This document shows positions 29,163-40,031 of a stretch of DNA of 64,000 nt, in pieces; the stretch's first letter is position 1; the number at the start of each line of letters is the position of its first letter. The position numbers and the translations under genes are program-made. The notes beneath the pieces are model-generated. The model was not told the origin of the DNA, made no database searches, and saw only the letters and a program-made list of their open reading frames with translations. The stretch spans positions 3,706,501 through 3,770,500 of the forward strand of contig NZ_CP061205.1 of NCBI RefSeq assembly GCF_015240255.1. The letters are read 5' to 3'. Source of the DNA: Kordiimonas pumila (GTDB lineage: Bacteria > Pseudomonadota > Alphaproteobacteria > Sphingomonadales > Kordiimonadaceae).

Positions 29163-30935
29163 GTGAAAGATATGAAACCACAGGCATTTGGGAAAAAACG
29201 GCAAGGTCTAAAGCCAGCAGGCGGTAATTTCGGGCGGGCGTCCTTTACATCGTTCCCTGCAACTGAAAGCGCACAATCTAGCCCTGTTTATCCAGTGAAT
29301 GACACCGGTGCGGTCTCACAGCCACACGATGCACCACGACCCGTAGGCCTTGCTATTAACGGTGTGTTTCAGGCGGCTGTGCCTGACGAAAGCATGGCTA
29401 TTGCCCTAAGCTTGGAAACCCTGCCCACTGCCGCAACAGAGCTACTGGCAACCATTTTCACGGCCGATGAACTACGCATGTCAACCAAGGCGGAAGTAGA
29501 GCACAAGATACTGTCAATGGTTACAAAGCTGGCCACTGAACATGGCCTTACCCTAAAAGGTGCTGAACAAAAAACTTTACTAGCAGAGCTTTTGGCTGCT
29601 GCGCAGGAAACCATCGGCCAGATTGGCGATCATGACCCAATTGCCAAAACAAGCAAAGATAAACAGGACAATAAAAAAGCCCTGTTTGATGCTAAAAACC
29701 GTATCCAAAATATGTTAATGGAGCATATTGACCCGGCGGCCGCTGCGGAGCTACCCCGCCCTGAGCTTGCTGAGCAGGTCGGCGAAGTTGTCGGCGAACT
29801 GCTTGTGCAGGAAAAAATAAACCTGAACCTTAAAGAGCAGCGCGATCTAGTTTCCCTGCTGCTTGATGACATGCTCGGCCTAGGGCCACTTGAGCCGCTC
29901 CTCGCTGACGAATCCATTTCAGATATAATGGTGAACGGACCCACACAGGTTTATGTGGAGCAGCACGGCAAGTTGACGCTTACCGATGTTACATTCCGTA
30001 ACAACCAGCACCTGATGAATGTGGCACAGCGTATTGTAACGGCTGTAGGCCGGCGGGTTGATGAAACATCCCCCATATGCGATGCCCGCCTGCTTGATGG
30101 TAGCCGTGTGAATGTTATCGCGCCGCCGCTTGCAATTGACGGCGCATCAATCTCGATCAGGAAATTCAAGAAAGACAAAATAACACTTGATAAAATGCTT
30201 GAGTTTAAAAGCATTTCTCCGCCGCTTGGGAAGCTACTGAAAATAGCTGGCGCATGCCGCCTGAATATTCTTATTTCCGGGGGGACAGGCTCTGGTAAAA
30301 CCACCATGCTGAATGCTCTTTCCCGTATGGTTGATAAGGGTGAACGGGTTGTCACTATTGAAGACGCTGCCGAATTGCAACTACAGCAGCCGCACGTAGT
30401 ACGGCTTGAAACCCGCCCACCAAACCTTGAAGGGCAAGGTGAAATAACCATGCGCGACCTTGTTAAAAACGCACTTAGGATGCGGCCAGACCGTATCATT
30501 CTGGGCGAAATCAGGGGCGGTGAAGCCATTGATATGTTGCAGGCAATGAACACGGGGCATGATGGTTCTATGGGCACATTGCACGCAAACCGCCCGCGCG
30601 AAGCCCTAACGAGGCTTGAAAATATGGTGAATATGGCAGGGCTGCACTTGCCCCCAAAAGCGATCCGCGAACAGATTGCCTCATCGCTTGATCTCATCGT
30701 TCAGGTTCAACGGATGCGCGACGGTGGCCGCCGCACCACGCATGTAACAGAAGTGGTTGGCATGGAAGGTGATGTCATTACCACACAAGACCTGTTCAAA
30801 TATGAATTTACGGGTGAAGACGAAAGTGGCCGCCTGATCGGTGATTTTGTTTCAACCGGCGTGAGACCACACTTTCTAACAAAAGCCGCCTATTTTGGGC
30901 TTGAACGCGCTCTTATGGAAGCAATGAACGGATAG
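29163..30935 (+). CDS. cpaF: Pilus assembly ATPase CpaF/TadA
   Basis: 590 residues if the GTG at 29163 is used, three fewer from the ATG at 29172; I cannot decide between them. The N-terminal 170 residues are variable. The secretion-ATPase core has NILISGGTGSGKTTMLNALS (Walker A near 372-380), VTIEDAAELQL (Asp box), ILGEIRGGEAIDML (Walker B) and the His box GSMGTLHANRPREAL. It powers pilin extraction and pilus extension from the cytoplasmic face. TadB and TadC follow directly. The long reverse-strand frame at 29951-30697 is only a codon-use shadow. Confidence 0.95.
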   Translation: MKDMKPQAFGKKRQGLKPAGGNFGRASFTSFPATESAQSSPVYPVNDTGAVSQPHDAPRPVGLAINGVFQAAVPDESMAIALSLETLPTAATELLATIFTADELRMSTKAEVEHKILSMVTKLATEHGLTLKGAEQKTLLAELLAAAQETIGQIGDHDPIAKTSKDKQDNKKALFDAKNRIQNMLMEHIDPAAAAELPRPELAEQVGEVVGELLVQEKINLNLKEQRDLVSLLLDDMLGLGPLEPLLADESISDIMVNGPTQVYVEQHGKLTLTDVTFRNNQHLMNVAQRIVTAVGRRVDETSPICDARLLDGSRVNVIAPPLAIDGASISIRKFKKDKITLDKMLEFKSISPPLGKLLKIAGACRLNILISGGTGSGKTTMLNALSRMVDKGERVVTIEDAAELQLQQPHVVRLETRPPNLEGQGEITMRDLVKNALRMRPDRIILGEIRGGEAIDMLQAMNTGHDGSMGTLHANRPREALTRLENMVNMAGLHLPPKAIREQIASSLDLIVQVQRMRDGGRRTTHVTEVVGMEGDVITTQDLFKYEFTGEDESGRLIGDFVSTGVRPHFLTKAAYFGLERALMEAMNG

Positions 30936-30939
30936 GGTG

Positions 30940-31929
30940 ATGCAAAGCAGTAATCTTGAAATTATCCTTCTTGGTAGTGGGCTTGTAGGCATTGTGCTGT
31001 TGATGGCCGTTACTTTTTTAACGCGCGCCCTTAACAGCACCAGAAAGCAAACCCGCACCCGGCTGGATAAATTCCGCACGCGCTTTGGTGAACGCACCCG
31101 CATGAAGGGTGATCATGCTCGCTCGATCCGGCTTAACCAGCAACAAACTGGTCTTGCTGGCCATATTGCCAGCCTGCTTCCAAAGCGCGACCAGATACAA
31201 AAGCGTATTGCCAAGGCGGGCCTCAGCACACCGTTATCCCGCTATGCAACAATCTCTGGCCTGCTCGCACTTTTTAGTGCCCTTACAATCTGGCTTATGG
31301 GTGCGCCTTTTGTGCTTTCCGTACTGCTGGGTATTACTGTTGGGGCAGGCCTTCCGCATATGGTTATTTCAAACCGGATAAAATCGCGTACCACACGCTT
31401 TACGCAGCAATTCCCGGAAGCAATGGACCTTATGGTGCGCGGGCTAAAATCGGGCTTACCCGTGAATGAATGTATTACAAATGTGGCTAAAGAACTACCG
31501 GCACCAACAGGTGTTGAGTTTCAAAAAATAACAGACGCCATGCGCCTTGGAAAACAGCTTGAGGAAGCCCTTTGGGAAACTGCCGACAGGCTTGATACCC
31601 CTGATTTCAAGTTTTTTGTTATTTCCCTTGTAGTACAGCGCGAAACCGGCGGCAATCTGGGCGAAACACTTGGCAACCTTTCCAACATCCTGCGCCAAAG
31701 GCAGGCGATGAAATTAAAGATCAAAGCTTTATCGTCAGAGGCAAAAGCAAGCGCATGGATTGTGGGCGCCCTGCCGTTCATTATGCTCGGGCTTATTATG
31801 ACGATGAACTATGACTATGGCATCGTTCTTTTTACCCACCCAAAGGCGATTATTGCAGGCATTGGTGCCCTTTTGTGGATGGCGATCGGCATGGTGATAA
31901 TGGCTAAAATGATCCGGTTCGAGGTGTAG
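30940..31929 (+). CDS. tadB: Tad pilus inner-membrane platform protein TadB
   Basis: 329 residues from the ATG at 30940 (a GTG at 30937 is next to it). The gene starts 4 bp after the cpaF stop. Hydrophobic segments are at about 7-28, 100-135 and at the C-terminus (about 268-325). The central F-domain has QQFPEAMDLMVRGLKSGLPV and RETGGNLGETLGNLSNIL, the GspF/TadB signature. It forms the membrane platform with TadC for the CpaF motor. Confidence 0.94.
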   Translation: MQSSNLEIILLGSGLVGIVLLMAVTFLTRALNSTRKQTRTRLDKFRTRFGERTRMKGDHARSIRLNQQQTGLAGHIASLLPKRDQIQKRIAKAGLSTPLSRYATISGLLALFSALTIWLMGAPFVLSVLLGITVGAGLPHMVISNRIKSRTTRFTQQFPEAMDLMVRGLKSGLPVNECITNVAKELPAPTGVEFQKITDAMRLGKQLEEALWETADRLDTPDFKFFVISLVVQRETGGNLGETLGNLSNILRQRQAMKLKIKALSSEAKASAWIVGALPFIMLGLIMTMNYDYGIVLFTHPKAIIAGIGALLWMAIGMVIMAKMIRFEV

Positions 31930-31932
31930 GCA

Positions 31933-32916
31933 ATGCATGAAATTGAAAAAATATTGGGCATTTCAACTGTTGACCTGCTGTCAATTATAACAGGCCTTTC
32001 TGCTTTTCTTGTTATGTTTGCTGTGTATCAAACAGCCCTCGTGCGTGACCCCATGAAAAGCAGGATAAAAAACCTGCAAGAACGGCGTGAAGCTCTCAAG
32101 GCAGGGCTTATCAGCACCGGAAAACGCAAATCCCCGGTAAAAAAGATGGATAATGTGAGTATTCTCCGGTCCATCGCCAACAAATTTAAACTACTGCAAA
32201 CCGAGCAGACCAAGAAAATTTCGTCTTCCCTTGTGCAAGCTGGTTTCAGGTCTGGCGATTCCGTTGTTGTCTATCAGGTAACGCGTCTCGTGCTGCCACT
32301 GGTTATGGGGCTTGTCGGTATCATTCTATTTTATGGCATGGGGGTTATGCCCGGCTATAAAAACTTCCACCCGATCTTTGCCATTGGATTTGTGCTGCTC
32401 GGTCTAAAACTGCCCGATATTTATATTATGAATGCCAAACAAAAACGCACAGACCTAATACGCAAAGGCCTGCCTGATGCACTTGACCTACTTGTAGTGT
32501 GCGCGGAAGCTGGCCTTACACTCGATAGCGCCCTGAACCGTGTCGCAAAAGAGCTGGGGCGGGCCTACCCTGAGCTTTCAGATGAGTTTTCCCTGACAGC
32601 CATTGAACTAGGGTTTCTGCCCGAACGCAGGCAGGCCTTGATCAACCTTTCTGAGCGCGTTGACCTCCCGGCCCTCAGGGGTGTGGTAACCACACTGGTG
32701 CAAAGTGAAAAATACGGTACACCCCTGGCCACATCACTAAGGGTTTTATCAGCTGAGTTCAGGAACGAACGCCTGATGAAGGCTGAAGAAAAAGCCGCAC
32801 GCTTGCCAGCCACCCTCACGGTGCCGCTTATTCTGTTTATCCTGCCAACGCTGTTTGTTGTTCTGCTTGGCCCCGCTGCCTGTAAAGTAGTTGATGACTT
32901 TATCAGCAAGCACTGA
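31933..32916 (+). CDS. tadC: Tad pilus inner-membrane platform protein TadC
   Basis: 327 residues, 3 bp after tadB. The F-domain has KGLPDALDLLVVCAEAGLTL and a later QSEKYGTPLATSLRVLSAEF, the TadC form of the GspF signature. Membrane segments lie at about 12-32, 115-160 and 290-318. It completes the motor platform. It is the last gene of the operon; a tadD-type TPR gene, often next in other alphaproteobacteria, is not present here. Confidence 0.94.
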   Translation: MHEIEKILGISTVDLLSIITGLSAFLVMFAVYQTALVRDPMKSRIKNLQERREALKAGLISTGKRKSPVKKMDNVSILRSIANKFKLLQTEQTKKISSSLVQAGFRSGDSVVVYQVTRLVLPLVMGLVGIILFYGMGVMPGYKNFHPIFAIGFVLLGLKLPDIYIMNAKQKRTDLIRKGLPDALDLLVVCAEAGLTLDSALNRVAKELGRAYPELSDEFSLTAIELGFLPERRQALINLSERVDLPALRGVVTTLVQSEKYGTPLATSLRVLSAEFRNERLMKAEEKAARLPATLTVPLILFILPTLFVVLLGPAACKVVDDFISKH

Positions 32917-33044
32917 TTTTCAGAGTGATATAAGTTCGTCTCTCACGGCAAATACACACCGTTGCAAATGCAATGATTTTAGCATATTGTTTATCGCAGA
33001 GTGTGAAAACACACCTTAAAATCATTACAGCGATGGAGGGCATA

Positions 33045-34436
33045 ATGCTGCGCAAGTTTTATATACTATTGGTTTCAATACCCCTTGTATTACTATCCTT
33101 TACTGCAAAGGCAGAGATTGCCAGTGCAGAAACTATAACAAAAGCTGCTACCGAATTACTAGACAGGGAGTTTCCTGCAGACGCACCCGGTATTGCAGTG
33201 CTGGTTGCACAAGGTGACAAAGTTTTATTCAGTGGGGCCCGCGGCCTTGCAAATGTGGAACTTGGCATTCCAGTGGCACCAGATAATGTGTTTCGTATTG
33301 GCTCAGTAACCAAACAATTTGCCGCTACAGCCCTATTAAAGCTGGTTCAAGAAGGCAAGGCAAAGCTCGATGATCCGCTGAGCAAATATCTGCCAGAATA
33401 TCCAAATGGTGACGACATAACGCTGGTACATCTCCTGAACCATACTTCCGGTGTTAACAGCTATACAGGTATCGAGAATTATTTTACCGATGGGCGCATC
33501 CAAAAAGACCTGTCAACAGAACAAATGATTGATGTATTTAAAGACTTGCCTGTTGATTTTGCACCCGGTGAAAAGTTTGCCTATAACAATTCGGGGTATG
33601 TCCTTGTAGGTGCCGTGATCGAGGCTATTACAGGCCGCCCTTGGTATGACTATATCGAAAAGGAATTGCTCGTTCCAAATGGCATTCTACGCACACAGTT
33701 CGGCTCGAACACACGGCTTATACACGGCGCAGTAAGTGGTTATGAGTATAACAATGGTGTTATAAAACCGGCCACATACCTCAGCATGACACAGCCCCAC
33801 GCTGCCGGCGCACTAACATCTAACGTTTATGATTTGATGCTCTGGAATCGCACGGTACATACCGGTAAGATTCTTGATCCAGAAATGTACAAACGTTTCA
33901 TTACGCCAGAAGGTGTGGCAGCTGATGTAAATTATGCATTTGCTGTAACAGACGGCGACATCCGTGGTCATAAGTCTATACAGCACGGCGGCGGCATCAA
34001 CGGTTTCATCACCTACCTGCTTTATATCCCTGACGAAGAAATCACAGTGGCAGCTATCCAGAATTCCACAGGCACACTGATGAGGAGCGAAAGGGTAGCT
34101 AAAGAGCTAGCGTCAGTTGCTGTGGCTGACCCAATGCCTACAGGCACACCGGTTACACGTTCAAATGATGAACTGAAAAAATATGTGGGTACTTATGCAA
34201 ATGAAGAGGGTGCAGTGGTAACACTGAAACTCGAAGGTGACACCCTTATCTGCACAACAGACCAAGGGCCACGTGGATACCCACAAACACAACCTCTGAA
34301 GCCACTAAGCGACGGCACATTTGAAGTTGGCATGAACAGTTACTGGCTTTCGTTCAGTGATGGCAAAAAAGGTGTAAGCACTTTAAAAACCGTCTTTATG
34401 GACACAAGCAAAGGCGGCACATTCAAGCGCAAATAA
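33045..34436 (+). CDS. Secreted serine hydrolase, class C beta-lactamase fold
   Basis: 463 residues from the ATG at 33045, with GGAGG five bases upstream; a longer frame from 32973 is unlikely. A signal peptide is clear (LRKFYILLVSIPLVLLSFTA then KAEIA). The catalytic SxxK is in FRIGSVTKQFAATALLKL (near residue 88), YxN is YNN in FAYNNSGYVLVGA, and the third box is HGG in QHGGGINGF. A C-terminal domain of about 100 residues (KKYVGTYANEEGAVVTLKL) is of the kind added to many peptidase S12 proteins. It may be a D-aminopeptidase, esterase or a peptidoglycan-linked enzyme; antibiotic hydrolysis is not implied. Confidence 0.88.
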   Translation: MLRKFYILLVSIPLVLLSFTAKAEIASAETITKAATELLDREFPADAPGIAVLVAQGDKVLFSGARGLANVELGIPVAPDNVFRIGSVTKQFAATALLKLVQEGKAKLDDPLSKYLPEYPNGDDITLVHLLNHTSGVNSYTGIENYFTDGRIQKDLSTEQMIDVFKDLPVDFAPGEKFAYNNSGYVLVGAVIEAITGRPWYDYIEKELLVPNGILRTQFGSNTRLIHGAVSGYEYNNGVIKPATYLSMTQPHAAGALTSNVYDLMLWNRTVHTGKILDPEMYKRFITPEGVAADVNYAFAVTDGDIRGHKSIQHGGGINGFITYLLYIPDEEITVAAIQNSTGTLMRSERVAKELASVAVADPMPTGTPVTRSNDELKKYVGTYANEEGAVVTLKLEGDTLICTTDQGPRGYPQTQPLKPLSDGTFEVGMNSYWLSFSDGKKGVSTLKTVFMDTSKGGTFKRK

Positions 34437-34459
34437 CACCTTGCAGCAAAGAAAAGTAT

Positions 34460-34495
34460 AAAGCCTGGTTTGAGTATAATCGAATCAGGCTTTTT
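34460..34495 (+). terminator. Terminator after the serine hydrolase gene
   Basis: AAAGCCTGGTTTGA pairs with TCGAATCAGGCTTT over 14 bp counting G-T pairs, with loop GTATAA and a short T tract after it. Confidence 0.8.
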
Positions 34496-34645
34496 CCTTT
34501 AAAACACCAGTATGTATAAGAGCCTGCAATAATATAGCCCGTCTAAAACTGTGGACTGTGCAGAGCAAAAAACGCTTTTTTTTAAAGGTTTTCACCAATT
34601 ATAATCAGAGAATCATTGACCTTTAGATGAATTTCTGGTCTTTTA

Positions 34646-34763
34646 GGGGGTGCGAGAGGATACAGCCTTGCTGTGTCCGCTCCATATTGTGACGGCGCCT
34701 TGCGCTGTCACTCTATCCTCGCTGTCGTGACTCGGGCCGGGTATTTACCCGGCCACTTTTTTG
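34646..34763 (+). ncRNA. Candidate structured small RNA, family not recognised
   Basis: No open frame covers this segment, but it folds well by eye. An outer stem pairs GCGA and GGATA (34652-34662) with TATCC and TCGC (34714-34722). Inside are two hairpins: ACAGC-CTT-GCTGT (34662-34674) and a 10 bp stem GTGACGGCGC/GCGCTGTCAC with the same CTT loop (34689-34711). An intrinsic terminator ends it: GGCCGGGT-ATTT-ACCCGGCC, then six T (34735-34762). A possible -35 TTGACC lies at 34616-34621, with a poor -10 TCTTTT at 34639-34644. I do not recognise 4.5S, 6S, tmRNA or RNase P features. It could be a trans-acting small RNA. Confidence 0.6.
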
Positions 34764-35085
34764 TTATCAAACCAAAAGATCACTCTTTATAATACCTGTA
34801 AGAGACATTTCTATGAATGTTGGTTACACAAAACCAGTTGGTGGGCTGAACACTTTTGCAGAGCAGCGTTTCCATATACATTGCACACAGCATGAAAAAG
34901 GCTCTGACCAAGCTACCTGTAAGGGGGGATACAGTGCAGCAAACGCCAGAGCCTCAAGTCACCGCTAAATACTCAGTACAAAATATTGACCTTTAGCGGC
35001 GGAGACAAAAATGCCTGCCTGTGAAACACGCAGGGCTTTATTTCATCAGTTGTTGTCTGTTGCCTAATATGCAGAAAAAGGTATA
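34764..35085 (+). other. Gene-free stretch with further hairpins and two tiny frames
   Basis: Several stems follow the small RNA: GGCTCTG/CAGAGCC (34900-34906 with 34947-34953), enclosing CTGTA/TACAG (34917-34934); CCGCTAAA/TTTAGCGG (34962-34969 with 34992-34999); and CCTGC/GCAGG near 35014-35034, followed by TTTATTT. Two small frames occur: 34892-34996 (34 codons, no ribosome site) and 35011-35067 (18 codons, with GGAG at 35001-35004). The 12-mer ATTGACCTTTAG appears at 34615 and again at 34985, and TACCTGTAAG also occurs twice. A second structured RNA or a leader for oxyR is possible but unproven. Confidence 0.35.
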
Positions 35086-35104
35086 ATCGATCCAATGGAT
35101 TGAT
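35086..35104. promoter_or_regulatory. Candidate OxyR box upstream of oxyR
   Basis: ATCGATCCAATGGATTGAT is a 19 bp near-perfect palindrome (ATCnATCCAnTGGATnGAT) ending 25 bp before the oxyR ATG. The first 16 bases match a site before katA at 14 positions. This fits autoregulation by a LysR-type protein. Confidence 0.6.
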
Positions 35105-35129
35105 TGTTTAACTGTGATCGGATTTATCA

Positions 35130-36041
35130 ATGAGCTTTCCTCCTACCCTAAAGCAGCTCAGGTATCTTTCAGCGCTTCATAAAACCATGCATTTTGGTAA
35201 AGCGGCGGATGTTTGCCATGTAACCCAGTCCACCCTTTCAGCAGGACTACAGGAACTGGAAAGTTTACTCGGCGCCCAGCTAGTAGAACGCACAAAACGC
35301 AGTGTTATGTTTACAGCCCTTGGTGAAGAGGTGGTGCATCGCGCCCTTAAAATTTTAAATGATGTCGATGACCTGACCGACATGGCTGCCGCCGCAAAAG
35401 ACCCCCTGCGCGGTATTGTGCGTATGGGTATTATCCCCACGATTGCACCCTATCTACTACCCAAAATAATGCCCGCCCTGCAGCGGGAACTACCTGCGCT
35501 TGAACTACAGCTACGAGAAGATAAATCTGCCGACCTGTGCGACCAGATGCGTATCGGCGAGCTGGATATTTTATTATACGCCCTGCCTTTTGCTTGCGGT
35601 GACGCAGAAGAAATGCCGCTGTTTCATGATGGTTTTGTTGCGGCTTACCCCAAAGGCATGATCCAGAAAAAAACTATTACAACGGCAGAACTGGACAGCA
35701 GCCGCCTGATGCTTTTGGAAGAAGGCCACTGCCTGCGCGATCATGCGCTTGATGCTTGCCGGCTTATGGGGAACAAGGCACGGCGGGAACTATCAGGCAC
35801 CAGCTTGCCAACCATTGTGCAAATGGTGGCGGCAGGCCACGGCACCACACTGTTACCACAAATGGCGGTAGACGCAGGGCTTACAAACGGGGTCAATGTA
35901 GACATACTACCTTTCAGCGATATAAACCCCACCCGCACCATTGGCCTTGCTTGGCGGCACACAAACCCGCGTGCTGTAACCTTCCGTAAACTTGGCGATG
36001 TGATTAAAGCTGCCTGCACCCATGAAGCCGTAGCCGCCTAA
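35130..36041 (+). CDS. oxyR: OxyR hydrogen peroxide sensor/regulator
   Basis: 303 residues, a LysR-type regulator. The N-terminal helix-turn-helix is at about 18-45 (FGKAADVCHVTQSTLSAGL). The effector domain holds the redox pair: C201 and C210 in EEGHCLRDHALDAC, the same spacing of nine as C199 and C208 of E. coli OxyR, which form the disulfide that switches the protein on. Peroxide would thus activate it. The convergent neighbour is a catalase gene, and similar palindromes lie before both genes. No other LysR subfamily has this cysteine motif, so the assignment is firm. Confidence 0.95.
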   Translation: MSFPPTLKQLRYLSALHKTMHFGKAADVCHVTQSTLSAGLQELESLLGAQLVERTKRSVMFTALGEEVVHRALKILNDVDDLTDMAAAAKDPLRGIVRMGIIPTIAPYLLPKIMPALQRELPALELQLREDKSADLCDQMRIGELDILLYALPFACGDAEEMPLFHDGFVAAYPKGMIQKKTITTAELDSSRLMLLEEGHCLRDHALDACRLMGNKARRELSGTSLPTIVQMVAAGHGTTLLPQMAVDAGLTNGVNVDILPFSDINPTRTIGLAWRHTNPRAVTFRKLGDVIKAACTHEAVAA

Positions 36042-36068
36042 AAAAACACCACCCCAACAAGGGTGGTG
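36040..36068 (-). terminator. Terminator of katA
   Basis: CACCACCC (36047-36054) pairs with GGGTGGTG (36061-36068). Read on the minus strand the hairpin is followed by a run of T from the A tract at 36040-36046, so it ends katA; on the plus strand there is no T tract. Confidence 0.85.
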
Positions 36069-36094
36069 CAAGTGCTTAGGGAGGATAATTGTCT

Positions 36095-37564
36095 TTACGC
36101 AGCCATAGCTTTTTTCACACGGGCTGCATAATCAGGGTCTGCCGCTGCAAACTGCGCCAACATACGCTCCTGCACCGTTTTTTCTGCCATTTTCAAACCA
36201 CCGCCAATATTACCAGCAAGCTGGTTTTTCTGGTCATCCGACATAATGCGGAACAGGTCACCTGCCTGTGTGAAGTTATCTTCATCACTGCTATCGTGGT
36301 AGCCAACCCATGCATTTTCTGCGAGCGGCATTGGTGGTTCTGCAATTGCAGGATTTGGTACTGGTGCACCTTCTTTTGCCCGGTCGTTAGGGTAAAAGTT
36401 TACACCTGAACCCTGATTAGCAGCACGGCCCGTCACCGGGCACACCCCCATGCCTGCCATCGCACCGTCACGTTCATAGTGGTGCACAGGGCACTTAGGC
36501 GCATTCACCGGCAACTGGTGGTGGTTTGTGCCTACCCGGTAGCGGTGTGCATCAGGGTATGCAAACAGGCGTGCCTGTAGCATTTTGTCAGGCGATGCCC
36601 CCACACCTGGCACAAGGTTGCTAGGGCTAAAGGTTGCTTGTTCGGTTTCCGCAAAATAATTATCAACATTGCGGTTCAACACAAGCTTGCCAATTTCTTG
36701 CAAAGGAAAGTCTTTGTGAGACCATACTTTGGTCAGGTCAAACGGGTTCACTTTATAGGTTTTAGCCTCAGCTTCTGTCATAACCTGAATTTTCACGGTC
36801 CAGCTTGGAAACACGCCGTTATCGATCGCATCAACAAGGTCTTGCTGCGCGCCAAATGCTGGCAGGCCTTCTGTCTCACTTGCGCGCAGGGTCTTAATGC
36901 CCTGATCGGTTTTAAGGTGAAACTTAACCCACACGCGAGTACCGTCGGAATTCCAGAAACTCAGGGTGTGCGAACCAAAACCATCCATATGCCTGTAGCT
37001 TGCAGGAATACCCCGGTCTGACATCAGAATAGTCATCTGGTGCAGGCTCTGCGGGTGGTTTGCCCAAAACTCAAACATGCGCGCCGGGTCTGGCGTGTTG
37101 GTACGTGGGTCTTTCTTCTGGCTATGAATAAAATCCGGGAACTTTGAGGGGTCACGCAAGAAAAACACCGGCGTGTTATTACCCACAAGGTCAAAGTTGC
37201 CTTCATTTGTATAGAATTTTACAGCAAAGCCACGCGGGTCACGGGCATAATCACTGCTGTCCTGCCCACCGCCCACGGTTGAAAAGCGCACAAACACGTC
37301 CGTTTCTTTGCCCGCACCCTGCAAGAAGCTGGCAATCGTCAGGTCGCTTAGGTCTTTTGTAAGGGTAAAGCGTCCATAAGCACCAGTACCACGGGCATGC
37401 ACAACACGCTCAGGAATCCGCTCACGGTTAAAGTGCGCCAGTTTTTCCATCAAACGCCAGTTTTCAAAAGTGAGAGAGCCGCGCGGACCAGCAGAAATAC
37501 TGTTATTGTCGTCTGCTATGGGGGCACCATTTTCACTTGTTAAAACTTTTGTGTCTTCAGCCAT
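36095..37564 (-). CDS. katA: Monofunctional haem catalase
   Basis: 489 residues, the size of small-subunit (clade 3) catalases. AAAGGA lies eight bases before the ATG. The distal haem histidine is in RERIPERVVHARGTGAYG (near 56) and the catalytic asparagine in NFDLVGNNTPVFFLRD (near 130). The proximal tyrosine is in RLFAYPDAHRYRVG (near 340). No signal peptide is seen, so it works in the cytoplasm, turning hydrogen peroxide to water and oxygen. It is convergent with oxyR and has candidate OxyR sites 60 bp upstream. Some relatives are annotated katB; the symbol is by similarity. Confidence 0.95.
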   Translation of the reverse strand: MAEDTKVLTSENGAPIADDNNSISAGPRGSLTFENWRLMEKLAHFNRERIPERVVHARGTGAYGRFTLTKDLSDLTIASFLQGAGKETDVFVRFSTVGGGQDSSDYARDPRGFAVKFYTNEGNFDLVGNNTPVFFLRDPSKFPDFIHSQKKDPRTNTPDPARMFEFWANHPQSLHQMTILMSDRGIPASYRHMDGFGSHTLSFWNSDGTRVWVKFHLKTDQGIKTLRASETEGLPAFGAQQDLVDAIDNGVFPSWTVKIQVMTEAEAKTYKVNPFDLTKVWSHKDFPLQEIGKLVLNRNVDNYFAETEQATFSPSNLVPGVGASPDKMLQARLFAYPDAHRYRVGTNHHQLPVNAPKCPVHHYERDGAMAGMGVCPVTGRAANQGSGVNFYPNDRAKEGAPVPNPAIAEPPMPLAENAWVGYHDSSDEDNFTQAGDLFRIMSDDQKNQLAGNIGGGLKMAEKTVQERMLAQFAAADPDYAARVKKAMAA

Positions 37565-37623
37565 GGTTAAATCCTTTCGAGTTGAAGAACCTTATCTGCA
37601 TGAAGCTTACATGCCTCTATTAA

Positions 37624-37670
37624 ATCTATCCAATTGATTATATTTTATTCTTAAATCGATTTTATAGATT
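37624..37670. promoter_or_regulatory. Candidate OxyR sites upstream of katA
   Basis: ATCTATCCAATTGATTATA (37624-37642) matches the oxyR-upstream palindrome at 14 of 19 positions, with the core ATC-n-ATCCAAT-n-GATT shared. A second partial palindrome, AATCGATTTTATAGATT, lies at 37654-37670. The first site is 60 bp from the katA start, a place suited to activation. Confidence 0.55.
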
Positions 37671-37723
37671 AAAGGTCATATAAGCACAGTCATAACGATA
37701 AGCATTTGACATCATGCGTGTTT

Positions 37724-38872
37724 ATGAAATTATTCACTCTGGATGCACCAAATGCAAGGGTGCCAAATAGCCTTGGGGGCAATGTGAACACTGTACCGAA
37801 CACATCCACAATAAAAGCAGGGACGCATAACAAACGCCTGAAAGCGGCCCTTACGGCGCTAGAGCAGCAGGCAGCAGCAGCACGGTCTGATATAGAGCTA
37901 ACCTGCGCCATTGCCGCACTGGAGGCATTTCCTACCCCCGTTGCCTATGATAACAGCCTTGCACGTACCATTGCGACCTGTGTTTCCGCCGCACTTGTTG
38001 TAACAGCAGCCATTTTGCAGGGTCTTGCATACCCGCCTGAATACGCAATTGCTGCAATCTGCGGCGCCCTTCTGCCTTGGGCTGTGTACTGGATCCTTGT
38101 ATCGGGTCGTAAAAACAGCCTTGAAAGCCTTTCCCGTACCATTGCCTACAAAAGCAGCTTGTTTGACTACGGCCTAAAAGAACAGCGCCTGCACCCTACA
38201 GGCAAGGCCCGCGAGCTTGGCGGCGAATTTCCGCTTTTCAGACAAGGCAACCACAGCCGCGAGGTGCGCCTGATGCTGTCTGGCACACAGGAAGGCACAG
38301 ATCATAGCTTTGCCTATGACTATTTCCATTTTCACTATGTCAACAAACGCACAGAAACCTACACAACAACTGACAGCAAGGGCCGTACCCGCGTACGCAC
38401 CCGCACCGTCTATGACCATTTTGACAGATATGGTTTTATCACGGATTTCCCGTACGCAAAAGACATTCACATTGCAGAAGGCGGCCTTGGATTTTTCACC
38501 TCTGGCTATAAAACCAGCTCCGTTAGTTTCAACAAGCGGTTTGGGGTGGAGGCCACAAGTGACATGGTCGCCGCCAAATTCCTAACACCCAAGATAATAC
38601 AGGAAATAGAAGCTGCCGGAGAGGCTTTGCTAGAAATGGACCTCTACTTTGGCAAACACGGCAAGCTATGCTTTTCTTACGGGAACAACAGCACATTTGC
38701 AACTATTCCCGCAGCACAGCTAACAGACCCAAAAGCTTTTAAAGAGGTTATCAGCGGCCATAATAGCCAGCATGGGCTGGATAGCGCCCTCACTTTTCTG
38801 CACACATTAATGAAATACTCTGATAATAATTTTGATATAGTCCACAAAACACAGCCAGAGGGTGTACAGTAA
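37724..38872 (+). CDS. DUF3137-like membrane protein
   Basis: 382 residues from the ATG at 37724; an upstream in-frame TTG at 37706 is an alternative. Two adjacent hydrophobic segments are at about 85-103 and 108-128. The C-terminal half has RTVYDHFDRYGFITDFPY and SVSFNKRFGVEATSDMVAAKFLTP, which match the pattern of DUF3137 proteins (FNKxF...D...A..LLTP). The start of the next gene, a LemA protein, overlaps its stop by one base (TAATG). DUF3137 and LemA genes often sit together. The function is unknown; an envelope role is likely. It is divergent from katA. Confidence 0.7.
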   Translation: MKLFTLDAPNARVPNSLGGNVNTVPNTSTIKAGTHNKRLKAALTALEQQAAAARSDIELTCAIAALEAFPTPVAYDNSLARTIATCVSAALVVTAAILQGLAYPPEYAIAAICGALLPWAVYWILVSGRKNSLESLSRTIAYKSSLFDYGLKEQRLHPTGKARELGGEFPLFRQGNHSREVRLMLSGTQEGTDHSFAYDYFHFHYVNKRTETYTTTDSKGRTRVRTRTVYDHFDRYGFITDFPYAKDIHIAEGGLGFFTSGYKTSSVSFNKRFGVEATSDMVAAKFLTPKIIQEIEAAGEALLEMDLYFGKHGKLCFSYGNNSTFATIPAAQLTDPKAFKEVISGHNSQHGLDSALTFLHTLMKYSDNNFDIVHKTQPEGVQ

Positions 38873-39444
38873 TGGAAACAGTTTATATTTTGCCCGGGAT
38901 TGTCATTCTCCTTATCATCATCGGGATCATCATTAACAATGGTATCATTTCCCGCAAGAACATGGTGGTGCGGTCGTGGGCTGATGTCATTACCTATGAG
39001 CGGCAGAAAAACGAAACCCTGCCAGCGCTTGAAGCCCAAGCAAAAGACTATAAAGAGCATGAAGCCAGTCTGCTGACTGCGGTCACGGAGCTACGCTCGG
39101 CGCTTGCAAAAGCCTCCACCCAAGATGTGAACACAAGTGATCTGGCGGCAATTGAAGCAAGCACCACAAAACTGATGTCAGGCTTTAATATTGCGGTTGA
39201 AGCCTACCCTGACCTGAAGCAGGCTAATGTCACCATGGCTTTGATGCGCGAGATCAGCGAACTGCAAGATAATATCGCAGCAGGGATCAGCATTTTTAAC
39301 AGCAATGTTGAAGCCTTTAATACGGGTGTTGAAATTTTCCCAAACAGCCTCGTGAATAGCATGTTTGCGCGGCAAACCCCTTACCGGCCATTTTATAATG
39401 AAGCGGCAGCCAGTTCGCTCGGGTTTACCCCGTCACAGGAGTAG
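38872..39444 (+). CDS. LemA family protein
   Basis: 190 residues. One N-terminal membrane helix (YILPGIVILLIIIGIIINNG) is followed by a helical domain. It contains RKNMVVRSWADVITYERQKNETLPALE, with YPDLKQANVTMALMREISELQDNIAAGI and NSNVEAFNTGVEIFPNSLV further on, the LemA pattern. LemA proteins are N-out or N-in envelope proteins of unclear function. It is coupled by TAATG overlap to the DUF3137-like gene and followed within 3 bp by a ferric-reductase-like gene, so the three likely form an operon. Confidence 0.88.
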   Translation: METVYILPGIVILLIIIGIIINNGIISRKNMVVRSWADVITYERQKNETLPALEAQAKDYKEHEASLLTAVTELRSALAKASTQDVNTSDLAAIEASTTKLMSGFNIAVEAYPDLKQANVTMALMREISELQDNIAAGISIFNSNVEAFNTGVEIFPNSLVNSMFARQTPYRPFYNEAAASSLGFTPSQE

Positions 39445-39446
39445 CC

Positions 39447-40031
39447 ATGCAGCTGCTGAAGGGTAAATCACTTATTGCTGTTTGCGGAGGTCTTACCCTT
39501 CTCTATACCGCATTTGCTTGTGTGATGGCAGGTGGTTATCTCGCAGGCCTTCCCTATGTGATGAAACCTACAGCGCATTTTGCTTTTGCCTTGTTTTTTA
39601 TGGCATTCACCGCCAGCAGCTTTCACACACTTGTGCCGGGACGCTATAGCCGCTGGGCTATCCGAAACCGACGCTATATTGGCCTATCGTTCGCGGCGGT
39701 GCATTTTATTCACCTTTTTCTGGTGCTCTCGAACATTACACTTACCGATGAAAGCAGGCCTTTGACGCTGCTGGTGGGTGGCGGGTTGGCTTACCTGTTT
39801 ATCGTCCTGATGGCCGCCACATCAAACAACTGGTCTGTACAGAAAATGGGGGCAAAAAACTGGCGCAGATTGCACCGTACAGGTAGTTGGTATATCTGGC
39901 TTATTTTTATTTACGGCGCGCCCAGTGTTCTGGACGGCAACTATATGCGTGTATGGATTACACTATTCTGCTTTATTGCCCTTGGGCTTCGCATTGCTGC
40001 ATATTGCAAAAAGAAAACTGCCAAAACCTAA
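39447..40031 (+). CDS. Ferric-reductase-like membrane protein
   Basis: 194 residues with about six hydrophobic helices. Histidines placed on them include those in FAFALFFMAFTASSFHTL, SFAAVHFIHLFLVL and WRRLHRTGSWYIWLIF, as expected of the haem-binding ferric reductase-like transmembrane domain (as in MsrQ). There is no flavin or NAD domain in the chain, so electrons must come from another protein. It is the third gene after the DUF3137-like and LemA genes. It overlaps the end of the convergent FG-GAP gene by 4 bp. The substrate is unknown. Confidence 0.75.
   Translation: MQLLKGKSLIAVCGGLTLLYTAFACVMAGGYLAGLPYVMKPTAHFAFALFFMAFTASSFHTLVPGRYSRWAIRNRRYIGLSFAAVHFIHLFLVLSNITLTDESRPLTLLVGGGLAYLFIVLMAATSNNWSVQKMGAKNWRRLHRTGSWYIWLIFIYGAPSVLDGNYMRVWITLFCFIALGLRIAAYCKKKTAKT

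Follow-up and report, generated by a model that had tools for sequence, protein, structure and literature searches.

A conserved small RNA of the Kordiimonadaceae lineage with a near-invariant core predicted to pair with envelope-stress mRNA leaders

Introduction

The small RNAs of the enterobacterial envelope-stress responses usually show complementarity to their targets over roughly 6-16 nt, and porin mRNAs are among these targets. Control of the phage-shock protein (psp) response, in turn, is known mainly via PspF/PspA and sigma54. For the alphaproteobacterial small RNA SorY, a target and control by RpoH are known. GntR-HTH/ABC operons encoding a protein with Toastrack, a PSP partner domain, are described in a 2024 survey of PSP systems (PMC11237479).

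The window analyzed here is a stretch of 64,000 nucleotides (G000:3706501-3770500) from a genome of 4.04 Mb in a single contig. A preliminary description of this DNA had proposed a structured, trans-acting small RNA of no recognized family upstream of oxyR. The literature searched on small RNAs of Kordiimonas and related taxa, on psp together with small RNAs or with GntR/YtrA, and on SorY, a search whose coverage excluded most subscription papers and bioRxiv, does not describe this RNA, and the family is apparently undescribed.

Results

Structure of the small RNA gene

The gene and its parts are listed in Table 1. The folding energy of the segment 34640-34766 is -58.8 kcal/mol as compared to -38.7 +/- 3.5 kcal/mol in shuffled sequences, none of 200 of which folded as well (z -5.7). 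With this fold and the covariation of both hairpins described below, the structured RNA element of the preliminary description is confirmed. Hairpin 2 and the terminator have the extents given there. For hairpin 1 the CTT loop was correct, and the proposed extent of 34662-34674 has to be replaced by the 9-bp stem of Table 1. An outer stem, which was thought to enclose both hairpins, amounts to about three weak pairs in the minimum free energy (MFE) structure of the single sequence and is missing from both consensus structures, so that it lacks support; below hairpin 1 the MFE structure contains a short GAG/CTC helix. A feature overlooked so far is the near-invariant stretch between hairpin 2 and the terminator, referred to as the core in the following, whose 3' end shares 4 nt with the 5' arm of the terminator. 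When the RNA is folded alone, the core is partly paired (UCGC is 9-22% unpaired), and opening its first 21 nt costs 4.4 kcal/mol.

Table 1. Features of the small RNA locus (positions within the window)
Feature	Position	Strand	Evidence
Small RNA gene, about 110-115 nt	34650..34762	+	fold z -5.7; homologs of at least 56.9 bits (model R1) in 45/118 genomes of the order
Hairpin 1: 9 bp, CTT loop	34658..34678	+	fold; 7/8 consensus pairs with two-sided changes
Hairpin 2: 10 bp, CTT loop, one G-T pair	34689..34711	+	fold; 8/8 consensus pairs with two-sided changes
Targeting core CUAUCCUCGCUGUCGUGACUCGGGCC	34713..34738	+	near-invariant in aligned rows; complement present in mRNA leaders
Intrinsic terminator: 8-bp stem, 4-nt loop, T-run	34735..34762 (stem-loop 34735-34754, T-run to 34762)	+	terminator scan, consensus
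Probable sigma70-type promoter: -35 TTGACC 34616-34621, weak -10 about 34639-34646	34616..34644	+	recurrence in relatives, by eye

Upstream of the RNA, most genomes of the same family carry TTGACC followed by a TGGTYTTYTAG-like stretch, as judged by eye. The TTGACC recurs 17-19 nt before a poor -10 element that fits the consensus weakly and is absent from the sites of the promoter scan. The start site was placed from this candidate promoter, and the likely 5' end at 34650 from the promoter spacing together with the point at which conservation begins.

Between the small RNA and oxyR, a second structured stretch (34870-35055, fold z -2.3) contains a terminator-like hairpin at 35018 and, at 34986-34996, the 11-mer TTGACCTTTAG, which is the same as 34616-34626 in the promoter region of the small RNA. 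This stretch is perhaps the oxyR leader or another RNA.

Conservation and distribution

One row containing an N was excluded, and of the remaining 39 small RNA rows, 28 and 36 were aligned. The smaller alignment, used for covariation, comprises 28 sequences of family f1 including that of the window (26 distinct rows). Covariation is present in hairpins 1 and 2: two-sided changes occur in 15 of their 16 pairs, and 78 cells carry such a change as compared to 22.9 in shuffles, none of 500 of which equals this number. Likewise, 97.0% of the cells are paired, a value reached in 0/500 shuffles, and pairing falls to 37-46% when the partners are slid out of register. The terminator stem is invariant across the 28 rows.

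By DNA search, 43 of 59 genomes (counting that of the window) had a match, which in the distant genomes was confined to the core and terminator. The covariance model R1 was built from the 36 rows and used to search 118 genomes of the order. The 45 genomes reaching at least 56.9 bits all belong to four families (f1 29/29, f2 8/8, f6 6/7, f7 2/2), outside of which the best score was 30.4 bits. One genome, G052, has two copies of the RNA. In the f6 genome G058, which is 89% complete, no small RNA was matched, yet both the psp and the GntR site described below are present.

An exact pattern scan of named genomes returned 31 loci, 30 of which contain the small RNA. Since many of the 31 loci are from Kordiimonas or Kordiimonadaceae, we infer that f1 corresponds to the Kordiimonadaceae. 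In 15/30 loci the RNA is flanked by homologs of tad (upstream) and oxyR (downstream), and in a further 14/30 by one of the two, many of these loci being stretches that end short of the neighbor. In Rhodothalassium (L117), neither homolog adjoins the RNA.

Candidate homologs in family f8 were rejected, as their R1 scores were weak (30.4 bits at best) and their alignments rested mainly on the terminator. Homologs of tadC, tadB or oxyR were absent at nine loci inspected, of which eight were R1 matches in f8 and one was a match to SorY. A small RNA of another kind is present at four f8 loci (L277, L279, L280, L284); it has a hairpin containing GUCUCCC and a terminator with GCCGGG, and it matches the model weakly.

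Relation to known RNA families

Rfam 15 was searched over positions 30000-40000 and in five relatives, and every listed match lay below its gathering score. The nearest family was SorY (RF02651) with 32.8 bits as compared to a gathering score of 111; SorX (RF02784) reached 22.4 bits as compared to 46.6 (best of the five relatives 30.7), and rpsL_pseudo matched at the small RNA locus with 21.7 bits as compared to 70. SorY exceeded its cut-off in 0/59 genomes. Membership in an Rfam family was dropped, no family having reached its gathering score; this agrees with the earlier failure to recognize the family, and no housekeeping RNA was matched.

The RNA resembles SorY and SorX of Rhodobacter sphaeroides in being an alphaproteobacterial small RNA with a hairpin and a GGCCGGG-like terminator, and these two families give the best Rfam scores of the locus. 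Together with the oxyR-like gene near the RNA, which is common in relatives, these sub-threshold scores could point to a divergent member of the SorY/SorX group with a function in oxidative stress, a role that had also been suggested from the neighboring oxyR. We find this reading hardly credible. The scores of the RNA are far under the gathering values, and the SorY matches are unspecific because SorY also matches at E<=1 in 4 of 14 control genomes, including E. coli. Moreover, the leaders of oxyR (z -0.1) and katA (z -2.0, marginal) are without clear complementarity to the core when compared to mononucleotide shuffles. It is membrane-stress operons, rather than oxidative-stress genes, that hold the complementary sites.

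Sites complementary to the core

Positions 34715-34738 (ATCCTCGCTGTCGTGACTCGGGCC) are identical in 36/36 aligned rows except for position 34734, which is A in the three f2 rows. These 24 letters are shared by four families while the flanking stems vary freely, and this calls for partners of the sequence itself. The complement of the core was searched in 147 genomes of the order, 46 of them from f1, f2, f6 and f7, with a tolerance of 3 mismatches. Nineteen off-locus sites were found in these 46 genomes and two in the other 101, one of them intergenic upstream of an rplU-like ORF and one within a transposase-like ORF; a reversed control pattern gave none in all 147. With up to 1 mismatch, no complement was present in 384 other genomes of the class, a draw whose members of the same order are from f5 only.

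As judged by eye from the surrounding ORFs, 15 of the 19 sites are sense-oriented and located within a leader or at a start codon, one is flanked by a gene and a terminator-like hairpin, and three are inside or antisense to ORFs. Of these 15, three are found ahead of pspA or of the ORF in its leader (L061, L135, L143), and six at the head of an operon encoding a GntR regulator together with an ABC ATPase (L096, L132, L134, L136, L141, L142). With the covariation and these sites in unlinked mRNA leaders, the trans-acting character proposed in the preliminary description is well supported. A GTGTACTACATAACTAATACACC-like palindrome upstream of the GntR operon in L096, L134 and the GntR leader of G000 is perhaps the operon's own operator.

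A shorter, looser pattern matched 145 times in the 29 f1 genomes (small RNA copies included) as compared to 20 times for its control, and 16 versus 6 times in 16 genomes of f3, f4, f5 and f8. From the matches listed, 20 loci were chosen by hand, exact matches first: 11 are leaders, three lie before terminator-like hairpins, one is inside an ORF and five are not clear-cut. The genes behind the 11 leaders include an MFS-like transporter, two adaptor-like efflux proteins, DUF6768 and a TPR-like protein, and the leader of a small membrane protein has a site in three species, with the AUG 10 nt downstream. Of the genes tested, Pfam bore out only GntR, DUF6768 and the ABC ATPase; the remaining gene names were read from ORFs.

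Tandem copies of the complement occur in L289, in the leader before an efflux-adaptor-like ORF, and in L305, in a stretch without an evident gene. At L293, L296, L286 and L095 the complement was found by eye between a stop codon and a terminator-like hairpin, and a convergent secB-like ORF adjoins such copies in two species; these are possible 3' UTR sponges. Both the tandem copies and those just 5' of the hairpins would fit a more general reading in which the complementary leaders or 3' UTR copies titrate the RNA and its main target lies elsewhere. This appears improbable, as the operons whose leaders hold the two most conserved sites are plausible targets.

In G000, the genome of the window, the pattern GCCCRAN{6,16}AGCGAGGA has three matches, the psp leader (818712), the GntR leader (1985612) and the small RNA; taken alone this gapped pattern is unspecific, with 21 matches in 16 genomes of families lacking the RNA. 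The psp region comprises a sigma54-like promoter (by eye), a 54-aa Arg-rich ORF, the site AGCCCGAGGACGAAGCGAGGATAA, whose 3' end lies 18 nt before the pspA AUG, pspA itself and pspB-/pspC-like ORFs. Four nt separate the GntR site TGGCCCAAGTCACAAATAGCGAGGATAA from the downstream AUG of an Arg-rich ORF of 46 aa, which is followed by a YtrA-like GntR gene, an ABC ATPase gene and a permease-like ORF; a second site, CCCGGGTTACGACAGC, is located upstream in the same leader. After subtraction of the opening costs, the estimated net duplex energies are -11.0 (psp) and -15.8 kcal/mol (GntR). Upstream of pspA and the GntR gene, G000 (L338:1128-1292, L337:343-483) and several relatives have small ORFs that encode about 37-65 aa and are rich in Arg; the two tested had no Pfam match.

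A third copy in G000 (356864; L060:1465) spans the end of an integrase-like gene and the ribosome binding site of the next ORF, so that the last codons of the integrase-like ORF and this binding site are a near-perfect complement of the core. In G017, a looser copy (L300) follows a similar integrase-like ORF at a distance of 226 nt. As the 3' ends of small RNAs serve as attachment sites elsewhere, the off-locus copies could be attachment sites of mobile DNA integrating at the 3' end of the small RNA. This was rejected as highly improbable: integrase-like ORFs were seen at 1/19 sites (G000) and 1/20 looser loci (L300), most sites are leaders of other operons, and viral contigs, plasmids and phages gave no matches.

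Duplex formation with psp and GntR leaders

For each leader (at most 700 nt, extended by 20 nt into the gene) the best duplex with the core of its own family was compared to 60 dinucleotide shuffles. Leaders were obtained for 54/54 genomes bearing pspA and for 48/53 genomes with the GntR gene (left out were G030, at a contig end, G032, G044, G053 and G057), and they were grouped by family and not by presence of the RNA in the single genome. At one decimal, z<=-3 was reached by 41/43 psp leaders of f1, f2, f6 and f7 as compared to 0/11 in f3, f5 and f8 (G053 -2.9), and by 34/42 GntR leaders of the RNA-bearing families as compared to 0/6 elsewhere; the genomes are related, so that these counts are not independent. 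The psp leaders missing the cut-off are those of G010 (-2.6) and G011 (-2.0), and the GntR leaders missing it are those of G002 and G026 (f1), G036, G047, G052 and G056 (f2), G039 (f6) and G034 (f7). The mean duplex energies were -37.0 (psp) and -36.5 kcal/mol (GntR), versus -26.6 and -23.7 kcal/mol in the families lacking the RNA. The true core was better than all of 30 shuffled cores in 37/43 psp and 29/42 GntR leaders, versus 1/11 and 1/6 elsewhere. As a control, random 720-nt stretches of named loci, from which near matches to the core or its complement had been excluded, gave z<=-3 in 2/120 cases and a mean energy of -25.8 kcal/mol. The pairing is imperfect in places: many pspA-proximal sites, that of G000 included, contain an internal loop, and in 9/85 leaders GTGACGAC stands in place of GTCACGAC, giving the same recurring G-G mismatch.

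A matched substitution in family f2

The core of f2 reads ...CUCAGGCC, with A at position 34734. The psp leaders of this family have GGCCTGAG in 6/6 cases examined and in a seventh (G443), whereas psp leaders outside f2 usually have C at the matching position, and T in two f1 leaders (G008, G019). When the letter was exchanged in silico, A paired better in 6/6 f2 psp leaders and G in 27/29 f1 and 8/8 f6/f7 psp leaders. The mean gain from A in f2 is small (-35.0 versus -34.3 kcal/mol, i.e. 0.7). The GntR leaders of f2 are weak (z<=-3 in 2/6), and the exchange split them 3 to 3. Among nine off-locus sites with up to 1 mismatch in eight f2 genomes, six of which are psp sites, eight have T and the exception has G. 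The f2 substitution is a single event in the small RNA, and the psp sites share ancestry.

This substitution bears on another reading, in which the leader motif serves as a cis element for a protein, or as a DNA site, and the small RNA is complementary to it by chance or descent without pairing. The recurrent GTGACGAC variant, which brings no gain in pairing, and the tandem copies in L289 and L305 would be in line with such an element. It is nevertheless quite improbable: in f2 a change in the small RNA is matched in the leaders, the sites are nearly confined to RNA-bearing lineages and mostly have one orientation relative to the genes, and the copy in the small RNA adjoins a terminator, an improbable spot for a leader element.

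Mode of action

In the mechanism that we propose, two covarying hairpins and an intrinsic terminator frame the 26-nt core, which would pair chiefly with the leader of the psp operon and with that of the operon of a small basic ORF, GntR regulator and ABC transporter, and in single species also with other leaders, several of them for membrane proteins. The duplex would hinder ribosome loading and lower translation, probably together with Hfq. Hindered ribosome loading is the most likely effect because about half of the psp sites (21/43) end 16-23 nt before the pspA AUG and some others contain GCGAGGA, the Shine-Dalgarno sequence of an ORF in the leader. In four further psp leaders (G024, G033, G039, G058), the AUG of a small ORF follows the site at 3-16 nt. 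A block of initiation fails to explain most GntR leaders, since a start codon is near the site in 8/42 only (AUG of an ORF of at least 29 codons 3-16 nt downstream).

The RNA could also pair with the same leaders and activate them by opening an inhibitory fold or by protecting the mRNA from RNase or Rho. The variable distance between site and start, with some sites 140-680 nt upstream, and the 34/42 GntR sites that are not followed within 16 nt by the start of a sizeable ORF would agree with this. We regard activation as rather unlikely in view of the psp sites that end shortly before the pspA AUG, and of sites whose GCGAGGA is the well-placed Shine-Dalgarno sequence of the next small ORF, e.g. 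in the GntR leader of G000. Thus, the positions near an AUG argue for repression of initiation at these leaders, and the sites farther upstream would be compatible with either sign.

An hfq gene is present in the genome. ARN runs are in only slight excess over shuffles in psp (4.2 vs 3.3) and GntR leaders (4.3 vs 3.3), with 3.1 vs 2.6 and 4.0 vs 3.0 in the groups without the RNA, and these Hfq-type repeats, barely above shuffles, were set aside as evidence.

Discussion

Overall, the comparison of genomes presented here establishes, at the level of sequence, the structure of the RNA, the conservation of its core, the complementary leader sites, their restriction to RNA-bearing lineages and one matched substitution. 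These results make it quite probable that the RNA acts in the Kordiimonadaceae lineage as a trans-encoded antisense RNA whose fixed core pairs with envelope-stress mRNA leaders, likely as a repressor and probably with Hfq. In the cell, the RNA would then be expressed, form a direct duplex with these leaders, repress rather than activate, and presumably engage Hfq. We further lean towards the view that the envelope-stress response of this lineage is wired by a single RNA whose 26-nt core is frozen and which connects psp, the GntR/ABC operon and a shifting set of membrane genes via long, sometimes tandem, coevolving sites.

If true, the psp response would be under the control of an antisense RNA that ties it to the GntR/ABC operon, which would make this RNA the first known case of antisense control in the phage-shock response; the literature searched, mainly titles and the beginnings of abstracts, contained no description of an antisense RNA on the psp operon. 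The locus provides a small RNA family with a regulon predicted from sequence alone, plus a natural substitution pair of small RNA and target. Its core may serve as a model for why a targeting sequence stays unchanged over long times.

When compared to the enterobacterial small RNAs MicA, RybB, MicL and CpxQ, the RNA described here is likewise trans-acting, ends with a terminator and has one conserved targeting region, and several of its predicted targets are membrane-related with sites near translation starts. Unlike in these RNAs, the complementarity extends over about 20-26 nt and is nearly perfect in some targets, and the putative targets are psp and the GntR/ABC operon instead of porins. 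With the alphaproteobacterial small RNAs carrying CUCCUCC loops (CcsR/ar7 type) it shares an anti-Shine-Dalgarno CCUC in the targeting region. However, the core of the present RNA is located between a hairpin and the terminator and not in loops, and its specificity extends some 20 letters further.
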